Positions 5,455-27,984 of a stretch of 34,670 nucleotides of DNA are shown one piece after another (within the stretch, counting starts at the first letter, position 1; each line of letters starts with the position of its first letter). The notes beneath the pieces are model-generated. The model was not told the DNA's origin and did not search any database. It saw only the letters and a program-made list of their open reading frames with translations. The stretch is taken from the NCBI GenBank assembly GCA_945786965.1, contig CALZFZ010000157.1:1-34670 (forward strand). Reading direction: 5' to 3'. The DNA comes from an uncultured Muriicola sp. GTDB taxonomy: Bacteria; Bacteroidota; Bacteroidia; Flavobacteriales; Flavobacteriaceae. Both the position numbers and the translations under genes were made by a program.

Positions 5455-8205
5455 ATGAGAACAAAACTCTTTTTTTTATTCCTGCTGGCAGGAATTGGGG
5501 CCTTCGCGCAGACAACCGTAAATGGTACTGTAATTGATAATAACGGTGAACCGATACCGGGGGCAAACGTTGTAATAATCGGAACAAGCACGGGAACGGT
5601 GGCCGACTTTGATGGAAAATTCGTTTTATCAACCAATGAAACGCCTCCCTTTGTTTTGAGGATTACCAGCATCGGTTTCACTGAAGTAACCGCGCAAGTA
5701 ACTTCAAACAATCAAAGCTTAACCATTACCCTTCAGGAAGCACAAACCATGCTCGATGAAATCGTTGTATCAGCATCCAGGAGGCCAGAACGGCTTTTTG
5801 AATCTCCGGTATCTGTAGAACGCTTTGGACTAAAAGAGATCAAGAATGCGGCAGCGGAATCTTTTTATGGGAGCTTACAGAATTTAAAAGGAGTAGATAT
5901 AAATACCAATAGTTTAACCTTCCAGTCTATCAATACACGGGGCTTTGCAACCTTTGCAAACACGCGATTTTTGCAGTTGGTAGATGGGATGGATAACTCG
6001 GCTCCCGGACTTAATTTTGTCTTGGGAAACCTGGTAGGGATGTCCGAACTGGAGGTGCAAAGTGTTGAAATATTACCGGGGGCCTCTTCTGCTTTATACG
6101 GAGCAGGAGCCTTTAATGGGATCTTGTTTATGAGAAGTAAAAGTCCTTTCGACTTTCAGGGGATTAGCGCCTATTTCAAAACAGGGATCACATCACAGGA
6201 AGCAGCCGGCGATAACAACTACTATGATTTTGGGATTCGCGCAGCACATGCTTTTAGCGATAAATTGGCTGTGAAAGCAAATTTATCGTATTTGCAAGGT
6301 GAGGATTGGCATGCCAACAGAACAGATGATCTTTTTAATCCTGGGGCTACACGCACAGACCCTGCATATGATGGCTTAAATGTATATGGGGATGAGGTCG
6401 GCACCTTGCTCAATTTTGATAATCTTGCTGGTTTGCCTTCAGGCACCGTTGGTTCAGCCTTTGTTACAAGGACCGGCTATGATGAGGGTGTTCTCGCAAA
6501 CTACGATGCCCAAAGTGTCAAATTTGATGGTTCTATTCACTACAAGCCATTTGCCGATGACTTTGAAATTGTTTATAACGGTCGGATAGGTAGAGGTAAT
6601 ACTATTTACCAGGGAGCCAACCGATATTCCATAAAGAACTTTATTCTACAGCAACACAAATTGGAGTTTAGGAACGATAATTTCTTTTTAAGGGGGTACA
6701 TTACTTCAGAAAATTCGGGGGATTCTTATGACACCCGATTTGCAGCTATAAATATCAACCGGAAATGGAAGGGAGATACACAGTGGTTTACCGAGTACGC
6801 ACAAACCTATATAGGGGCCCGTTTAGGAGTTGGAACCGGTGTACTTTTGGATGATGCCACTGCACATGCCGCAGCCAGACAGGCAGCAGACACAGGTAGG
6901 TTTATTCCCGGAACACCCCAATTTCAGACTGCATTTAATGCGGTTACTGCGGATGGGGATTTATTAACCGGCTCAAAATTTATCGATAATACGAAGCTAC
7001 GTCATGCAGATGCCAACTATAATTTTACTCACCTAACAAGTGAATTTGCAGAGATCCAAATAGGTGGTTCTTTCAGAGAGTATGACCTGAATTCGAACGG
7101 TACCATCTTTACGGACATCGATGGACCCATTAAATACAATGAATATGGAGCCTACCTTCAAATTCAGAAGAAACTATTAGAGGAACGCCTTAAATTTACC
7201 GGGTCTATCCGTTATGACAAGAATGAATTTTTCGATGGTTTCTTTTCACCACGGGTATCATTGGCGTATACCGCCGGAGCCTCAAAAAAACATAATTTCA
7301 GAGTTTCGGCTCAACAGGGTTTCCGAAATCCTACTACCCAGGATCTTTTCATTGGTTTAAATGCAGGAAGGGCTGTTTTAGTTGGTTCTGCACCTAGTAA
7401 CCTCGATAGGGATGTCAGAACCTATACGTTAAGTAGTTCCGGGGCAACAATCGCAGGATCTAGTACAGCAACCGTATTAGGCAGGGCGGCTTACGAAAAT
7501 GCCTTCTCCCTGGCGTCTGTAAACGCAGGGGCACCCACTGCCGTAAATACACCTCTGGTTAAACCTGAAGAAATCACTGCGTATGAAGTGGGTTACCGGG
7601 CACAATTCGGTAAAGTTGCAGTAGATCTAAGTGGTTATTATAATAAGTATAAAAATTTCATATCGAATACAACGGTTCTTGTTCCTTTTTATGGTACTGC
7701 CGGGGATAACGCATTGTCATTATTGGCCTTGCAGAATGGCGATTTCTTCCCATACCAAACTTATACCAATTCTGAGGCCGATATAAATTCGTATGGGGCT
7801 ACAATTGGGGTTGATGTTAAGATCTTAGGAAACTTTGATCTTGGGGCTAATTATACGTATTCGGAAATCGATTTTAATCAGGCAGCTTTTCCCGATTTCA
7901 GGACCAACTTCAATACGCCAAATCACAAGGTAAAGGCCTCATTCGGAAATACGGAGTTGTTTAAGAACTTTGGATTTAACATCAATTATCGTTGGAGTGA
8001 CACCTATTTTTGGCAGGCAACTTTCGCCGATGGCGACATTCCCTCTTATAATATTTTGGATGCACAAATTAATTATTCAGTTCCTGATATTAAATCTATT
8101 TTTAAATTGGGTGGTTCCAACATTTTGGGTGAGGAATATTTCTCAGCTATTGGAACCGGAAATGTTGGATCTATTTTTTATGTTTCCTGGACCATAAATC
8201 CTTAA
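5455..8205 (+). CDS. TonB-dependent outer-membrane receptor with carboxypeptidase-like N-terminal domain
   Basis: A 916-residue outer-membrane importer. The signal peptide MRTKLFFLFLLAGIGAFAQ probably ends at AFA. Residues ~22-100 form the carboxypeptidase-D-regulatory-like (CarboxypepD_reg) domain (TVNGTVIDNNGEPIPGANV, then GTVADFDGKFVL). The plug follows (EIVVSASRRPERLFESPVS, VEILPGASSALYGAGAFNG), then a long beta barrel ending FYVSWTINP, a plausible aromatic-rich final strand. No susD-like gene lies next to it, so it is not a Sus-type glycan pair; the ligand may be a siderophore, cobalamin, peptide or other compound and cannot be read from the sequence. It is monocistronic: a repeat-rich promoter region precedes it and a strong terminator follows. 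Confidence 0.93.
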   Translation: MRTKLFFLFLLAGIGAFAQTTVNGTVIDNNGEPIPGANVVIIGTSTGTVADFDGKFVLSTNETPPFVLRITSIGFTEVTAQVTSNNQSLTITLQEAQTMLDEIVVSASRRPERLFESPVSVERFGLKEIKNAAAESFYGSLQNLKGVDINTNSLTFQSINTRGFATFANTRFLQLVDGMDNSAPGLNFVLGNLVGMSELEVQSVEILPGASSALYGAGAFNGILFMRSKSPFDFQGISAYFKTGITSQEAAGDNNYYDFGIRAAHAFSDKLAVKANLSYLQGEDWHANRTDDLFNPGATRTDPAYDGLNVYGDEVGTLLNFDNLAGLPSGTVGSAFVTRTGYDEGVLANYDAQSVKFDGSIHYKPFADDFEIVYNGRIGRGNTIYQGANRYSIKNFILQQHKLEFRNDNFFLRGYITSENSGDSYDTRFAAININRKWKGDTQWFTEYAQTYIGARLGVGTGVLLDDATAHAAARQAADTGRFIPGTPQFQTAFNAVTADGDLLTGSKFIDNTKLRHADANYNFTHLTSEFAEIQIGGSFREYDLNSNGTIFTDIDGPIKYNEYGAYLQIQKKLLEERLKFTGSIRYDKNEFFDGFFSPRVSLAYTAGASKKHNFRVSAQQGFRNPTTQDLFIGLNAGRAVLVGSAPSNLDRDVRTYTLSSSGATIAGSSTATVLGRAAYENAFSLASVNAGAPTAVNTPLVKPEEITAYEVGYRAQFGKVAVDLSGYYNKYKNFISNTTVLVPFYGTAGDNALSLLALQNGDFFPYQTYTNSEADINSYGATIGVDVKILGNFDLGANYTYSEIDFNQAAFPDFRTNFNTPNHKVKASFGNTELFKNFGFNINYRWSDTYFWQATFADGDIPSYNILDAQINYSVPDIKSIFKLGGSNILGEEYFSAIGTGNVGSIFYVSWTINP

Positions 8206-26111: not shown

Positions 26112-27440
26112 GTGGATCCGGATCCCTTTCTACTCCTTCTTGGTTTTATAGATTTTGATAGTGCCTTTGTAGTTAAAGTATGCGTGCTTGTATTGTTATT
26201 GGTATGTTCTGGTATGATCTCAGGGGCCGAAGTCGCTTTTTTTAGCCTTTCTCTCACCGAAGTCAAAGAAATAGAAGAACGGAAAACATCCAAGGGCCTT
26301 ATTATTGTCAGATTATTGGAGCGACCCAAGAAATTGCTGGCTACCATACTTATCGCCAATAATGCTATCAATATTGGGATCGTCCTTTTATTCAGTGCAA
26401 TAGGGGATACCTTATTTTCAAATATTACCTATAAACTGATGGGTGTTATTTCGATCCGATTTTTGTTGGAAGTAGTTGTTGCCACTTTTTTGATCCTGAT
26501 GTTTGGTGAGATATTGCCCAAAATATACGCGAATCGAAATAGGCATATATTTTCGAATTTTATGGCGTACCCCTTAAAAGTACTGGATATATTGCTTACT
26601 CCATTGAGTATGCCTATGCGGTCGGCAACTATTTATATGTTTAATAAACTGGGCAAACAGAAAACCAACTTAAGCGTAGATCAACTTTCGCACGCCCTGG
26701 AGTTAACCTCGGAAGGAGATACGACCAAAGAAGAGCAGAAAATACTAGAGGGGATTGTCTCTTTTGGAAATACCGATACCAAACAGGTGATGCGCCCCCG
26801 GATCGATATTTTCGCTTTGAGGGAAGATATGAAGTTTGTTGAGGTTATTGAAGAGATCCAAAAACACGGATATTCGCGTATTCCTGTTTTTTCGGATCAT
26901 ATAGATCAGGTAATAGGCGTGCTCTATGTAAAAGATCTGCTACCCTACATTGATAGAAAAAACTTTAATTGGGTGTCGCTGGCGAGGGATCCTTATTTTG
27001 TACCGGAAAATAAAAAACTGGATGATTTACTCCTCGAATTTCAGGAAAAGAAAATTCACCTTGCCGTAGTGGTAGATGAATATGGGGGCACTTCCGGCAT
27101 AGTGACCCTGGAAGATATTATTGAAGAGATTGTAGGGGATATCAGCGATGAGTTCGATGATGAGGATTTGATATTTTCGAAATTAGACGATTTCAATTAC
27201 GTTTTTGAAGGAAAAACAACTTTAAAAGATTTTTACAGGGTTGCCAAAATAGAGAACGAAGCAGATTTTGAAGAACAGAAAGGGGAATCTGAAACCATAG
27301 CGGGATTTGTGCTTGAAATAGCAGGAAGTTTTCCCAAAAGAGGGTCAAAGGTCGTATTTAAGAACTACCAATTTGTTGTGGAAAGCCTGGATAAGAAACG
27401 GTTGAAACAAATTAAAATAACTTTGCCCCATGCAGTGTAA
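26112..27440 (+). CDS. gldE: GldE, CNNM/CBS-domain membrane protein of the gliding machinery
   Basis: 442 residues, start GTG at 26112 (MDPDPFLLLLGFIDF). It has an N-terminal DUF21/CNNM membrane domain with about four transmembrane segments (VCVLVLLLVCSGMISGAEVAFFSL, then LLEVVVATFLILMFGEILPK). A CBS pair (MRPRIDIFALRED to GVLYVKDLLPYI and HLAVVVDEYGGTSGIVTLEDI) and a C-terminal transporter-associated domain follow. The order mutY-ssb-gldE-gldD and the family fit GldE, which in Flavobacterium acts with GldD in gliding and the type IX secretion system. Its end overlaps the start of gldD by 11 bases. Confidence 0.9.
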   Translation: MDPDPFLLLLGFIDFDSAFVVKVCVLVLLLVCSGMISGAEVAFFSLSLTEVKEIEERKTSKGLIIVRLLERPKKLLATILIANNAINIGIVLLFSAIGDTLFSNITYKLMGVISIRFLLEVVVATFLILMFGEILPKIYANRNRHIFSNFMAYPLKVLDILLTPLSMPMRSATIYMFNKLGKQKTNLSVDQLSHALELTSEGDTTKEEQKILEGIVSFGNTDTKQVMRPRIDIFALREDMKFVEVIEEIQKHGYSRIPVFSDHIDQVIGVLYVKDLLPYIDRKNFNWVSLARDPYFVPENKKLDDLLLEFQEKKIHLAVVVDEYGGTSGIVTLEDIIEEIVGDISDEFDDEDLIFSKLDDFNYVFEGKTTLKDFYRVAKIENEADFEEQKGESETIAGFVLEIAGSFPKRGSKVVFKNYQFVVESLDKKRLKQIKITLPHAV

Positions 27441-27984
27441 TTGGTTTATTTTTCTACTTCTGAGCTTTATGGTGTTTGTTTCTTGTAAAGAAGAAGTATT
27501 ACCCAAACCCAGGGCCCAATTACGACTGGAATATCCGCAAGGAAATTCGGATATCGTTGAAACGCCGGACTATTCCTTTCAGTACAATACCCTGGCACAG
27601 ATCAAAAACAGGAAAGGATCTTCCTTTACCCTGGAGTACCCGGGTTTAAAAGGCGCTGTTTTTATAACCTACAAGCCTGTCGAGAACAATTAAAATGTAT
27701 TATTAGCAGATGCCCAAAGACTGTCCTACGAACATGTGGTTAAAGCCGACAATATATTGGAACAGAGATTTGTAAACGAGGATACAGGCGTGTATGGGAT
27801 GTTTTATGAAGTGAAAGGGAATGCTGCTTCCCAGGCACAATTCTATGCAACCGATAGTATTCGGCATTTTGTAACTGGTGCACTCTATTTTTATGCTAAA
27901 CCCAACTACGATTCTATTTACCCTGCTGCCATCTATCTTCAAAATGATGTTCGGAGGATCATGGAGTCTTTAAAGTGGAAATAA
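27430..27984 (+). pseudogene. gldD: GldD gliding lipoprotein gene interrupted by an in-frame stop codon
   Basis: Codons 1-87 give a lipoprotein with a lipobox at Cys19 (MVFVSC, then KEEVLPKPRAQLRLEYP) and the GldD-like part DYSFQYNTLAQIKNRKG. Codon 88 is TAA (27691-27693). The same frame then continues without a break for 96 more codons: NVLLADAQRLSYEHVVKAD, VYGMFYEVKGNAASQAQF, LYFYAKPNYD, to a TAA at 27984. Total length matches GldD (about 185 residues), and the two halves are in the same frame, so a single base change (for example TTA to TAA) would explain it. GldD is needed for gliding and type IX secretion in Flavobacterium. Loss of function, a sequencing error and readthrough are all possible; the downstream half shows no further decay, which favours a very recent change or an error. 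Confidence 0.88.

Follow-up and report, generated by a model that had tools for sequence, protein, structure and literature searches.

A single in-frame stop codon in gldD of a fragmented Muriicola draft genome, more likely an assembly artefact than a loss of gliding

The stretch of DNA analysed here (the window) is the entire contig C157, 34,670 bases, of a draft genome (G000), and its gldD gene contains one in-frame stop codon. Does this stop mark a loss of gliding and type IX secretion in the organism, or does it belong to the assembled sequence only? The draft genome comprises 2,387,794 bases in 214 contigs, is 80.32% complete, and in its fragmentation and incompleteness looks like a metagenome bin. 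The suggestion in the first-pass annotation that gliding had been lost in the laboratory does not suit a window that is one contig of such a genome, and was dropped.

The gldD frame and its surroundings

The gldD reading frame lies on the forward strand at 27430–27984; as read from the sequence, it starts with ATG at 27430, ends with TAA at 27982–27984, and stays in a single frame throughout. It is interrupted at codon 88 by a TAA at 27691–27693 (forward strand), after which 96 sense codons (27694–27981, forward strand) encode the rest of GldD, its more conserved part, confirming the first-pass description of a single in-frame stop with no frameshift. Both PF25593 and TIGR03512 span the stop. 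Read through the stop, the frame scored 237 bits against TIGR03512 (GldD_lipoprot, cut-off 120) and matched the profile over its length; on their own, the part before the stop scored 67 bits, which is under the cut-off, and the part after it 154 bits. A PF25593 search of the 80%-complete draft found a single GldD place (E 1.1e-58, 198 bits against a cut-off of 27, with one TAA inside) and no second gldD copy. The stop is present and is not a chance effect, and the gene is otherwise an ordinary gldD.

Upstream, gldE (26112–27440, forward strand) proved intact, as first described, with 633 bits against TIGR03520 (GldE, cut-off 376); its last 11 bases are shared with the start of gldD, and the pair is preceded by mutY and ssb. 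The gene resembles the GldD lipoprotein family (TIGR03512/PF25593) in its full-length match across the stop, its position after gldE, and its lipoprotein-like start, and differs from it in the codon-88 stop, which is absent from the other 419 genomes among the matches listed. The mature protein begins C-K-E-E (27487–27495), and relatives have C-K-D-E, C-Q-D-E, and similar motifs at this place. Motifs of the C-K-E-E type mark surface-exposed lipoproteins in some Bacteroidota.

GldD in relatives and conservation beyond the stop

The GldD survey comprised 420 genomes with a match, inspected one row at a time: 77 genomes and, within the same family, a further 343 (132 and 211). The nearest named records to the second part of GldD were marine Flavobacteriaceae, including Eudoraea, Allomuricauda, and Muriicola. 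An in-frame gldD stop occurred only in the window's own genome (1 of 420) among the matches listed; one genome, G286, has a second GldD match outside them. The comparison with relatives proposed in the first-pass annotation likewise returned, among these listed matches, no GldD ending at codon 88, and a naturally short GldD was rejected. The codon-88 residue is leucine in 111 of 124 GldD loci, a count in which some genomes appear twice because they were drawn from two collections. The eight same-genus copies, from seven genomes, are all stop-free with leucine at this codon, and the same-genus genome G004 gave no GldD match. In the second collection, one of the 80 loci (L098) has a different in-frame gldD stop, TAG at 2938–2940 of that locus; it is a metagenome-assembled Muricauda record, in a collection where 29 of the 80 locus titles say MAG. 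Another draft, G007, has two different intact gldD copies on its contigs C259 and C54 (L120 and L125), suggesting a mixed bin.

After the stop, one of 53 strongly conserved columns deviates (the mean for the other sequences is 1.7%), and before it none of 11 does. The second half is thus as clean as first reported; it follows that the stop, if real, is recent, and an old or established pseudogene was rejected because the relaxed conservation expected beyond such a lesion is absent. Relative-rate counts for gldD flipped direction with the outgroup, and nothing was concluded from them.

Other gliding and secretion genes of the draft are open, namely those for GldM (positions 1–524 of 524), GldK (2–408 of 408), and SprA (3–2319 of 2319), as are seven secretion-tail matches, six of them above the cut-off; decay of the whole secretion system was not seen for any of these. 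A 565-aa open frame on contig C68 probably encodes GldJ. Viral contigs, searched for exact matches of 30 bases, gave none.

Interior stops elsewhere in the assembly

In a homology scan, 723,098 bases of the draft were compared with proteins from 1.2 Mb of G001, a one-contig genome of the same genus. The scan, which covers only genes common to both samples, yielded 214 non-shadow gene pairs (70,887 codons); seven pairs, four of them with stops, were excluded as shadow frames. Ten of the 214 pairs hold a stop, and gldD had the sole stop well inside a gene. The other nine stops fall within the first 28 aligned residues and were read by eye as different start sites; among those checked further, the UbiA profile of L177 begins after the stop, and L179, with no family, has a Met start following it. 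No frameshift-like splits were detected among 223 best-hit gene pairs, in a test that short pieces would escape.

A codon-usage scan followed by family profiles tested 293 stops in the same 723 kb and gave 10 candidates; applied to the 1.2 Mb of G001, it tested 642 stops and gave 17 (other versions of the scan gave 8 candidates when stricter, in an earlier form, and 34 when looser). A family profile ran across a single in-frame stop in 4 of the 10 candidates from the draft and in 0 of the 17 from the 1.2 Mb of G001, counts that rest partly on judgement, several candidates having been settled by eye. The four were gldD, the haem chaperone gene hemW, the tRNA-modification gene mnmG, and an aminotransferase fusion gene. 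The hemW gene (3–899 of L156, contig C42, forward strand) has an in-frame TAA at 315 and scored 194 bits against TIGR00539, short of the cut-off of 205 as the gene is truncated by the start of the contig. In mnmG (774–2669 of L163, contig C49, forward strand; TIGR00136, 835 bits) the stop is a TAG at 1239. The phosphotransferase-peptidase-aminotransferase fusion gene (7016–10075 of L156, contig C42, minus strand; PRK06148, 1149 bits) has a TAA at 7798, within the aminotransferase domain.

The remaining six candidates from the draft were set aside as gene junctions or ends (L137, L144, L156 at 900, L178, L179 with IF-3 then L35, and L183); the least certain is L183, whose stop is crossed by broad iron-sulfur profiles. 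Among the G001 candidates, no family was found for L224 or for the shorter candidate in L222, and a weak Ras-like match in L202 starts just past the stop. By sample length, the chance of all four stops landing in the draft's sample is about 2%; leaving out gldD, which had been selected in advance, raises it to about 5%.

Origin of the stop and its meaning

Isolated base errors and minority alleles occur in draft metagenome-assembled genomes. The gldD stop is probably not fixed in the organism; an error at the base level, or a minority allele, in the consensus would account for it. A wrong base or a non-representative allele would have passed into the consensus sequence of this fragmented assembly of metagenome type and produced the TAA in gldD, and the living population would make full-length GldD, gliding and secreting normally. 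All four stops would then be substitution-type consensus errors or non-representative alleles. Similar lesions do turn up elsewhere in this assembly, in genes with no relation to gldD: clean stops of the same kind interrupt hemW, mnmG, and the aminotransferase gene, housekeeping genes included, so the gldD stop is not special and the weight shifts to assembly or consensus error. This was one of the options in the first-pass annotation, and it is the one favoured by the three like stops in 723 kb. Scattered stops of the substitution type also agree better with consensus errors or minority alleles than with a loss specific to gliding. The lesions resemble base errors and minority alleles of metagenome-assembled genomes in being single in-frame stops that interrupt functionally unrelated but otherwise constrained genes, and in that the compared pairs showed no frameshift-like splits; they differ from established examples in that the error is here a probable one, proposed from the assembled sequence itself. 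Against this explanation, the excess of stops comes from four genes, the homology scan of 214 genes had gldD as its only interior stop, and four errors would by our estimate amount to about one wrong base per 10 kb, which is high for a well-covered assembly. On balance, loss of gliding as a property of the organism is not established, and an assembly artefact is more likely; a fault of sequencing or assembly, or an accidental lesion, explains the stop more readily than a meaningful loss of motility does.

It is possible, though less likely, that the sequenced population really carries a nonsense mutation of very recent origin. The protein would then end at residue 87 and lack its more conserved part, with gliding and type IX secretion weakened or gone, a change that phage resistance may have favoured. 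In its favour, the TAA is present in the assembled sequence and the region beyond it is undecayed, as a recent mutation predicts, and L098 supplies a second, different in-frame gldD stop; however, the equal lesions in the other three genes of the scan point to a general cause, the GldM, GldK, and SprA genes are open, and L098 is itself metagenome-assembled. Such a phenotype has precedent in PMC5682007: transposon mutants of Flavobacterium psychrophilum in gldD fail to spread and secrete fewer type IX proteins, and greater phage resistance is cited for gldD mutants of F. johnsoniae. A phage-selected, non-spreading morphotype of F. columnare is described in PMC4094633. If the window's stop is real, GldD would be lost as in the Flavobacterium insertion mutants of PMC5682007; those are laboratory transposon insertions with tested phenotypes, whereas the window's gldD stop is read from sequence. 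The first-pass statement that a nonsense change should abolish both gliding and secretion is sound in so far as loss is likely, but it was too firm, since a Cellulophaga algicola gldD mutant is cited in PMC5682007 as only partly deficient in motility; loss of gliding here, if the stop is real, is therefore likely but not certain. A broader proposal is very unlikely: that gldD nonsense alleles arise repeatedly in wild marine flavobacteria, here and independently in L098, with non-gliding, non-secreting cells escaping phages and the remaining machinery kept so that full-length alleles can return.

That a suppressor tRNA or an altered code lets the stop be read through, yielding full-length GldD, is improbable in the extreme. 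The gldD frame and its conservation do persist past the stop, and profiles cross stops in three further genes, but the stops concerned include TAA and TAG alike, and no stop-reading anticodon was present at the 21 tRNA places found in the 80%-complete draft, an incomplete set. A changed code was rejected because TAA still terminates 114 of the 177 genes with readable ends, gldD among them; the readthrough or suppression raised in the first-pass annotation thus gained no support. Hardly credible, too, is a GldD made as two pieces by a translational restart at GTG 27736, the first in-frame GTG after the stop and the start of an 82-aa ORF (27736–27984, forward strand) in the ORF list, because the second piece, as read from its sequence, would carry no signal peptide and a stop inside gldD occurs in 0 of the 419 other genomes among the matches listed, so that this predicted ORF is unlikely to be functional.

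The practical lesson is that this assembly has several clean interior stops per megabase, so a single broken gene in it should be checked against the reads before it is taken as biology. Phage resistance would be a possible gain from a real stop. If the stop is both real and common in the population, the organism would be a gldD mutant from nature whose gliding and secretion machine is otherwise open, and would be useful for asking what such a loss brings in the wild.
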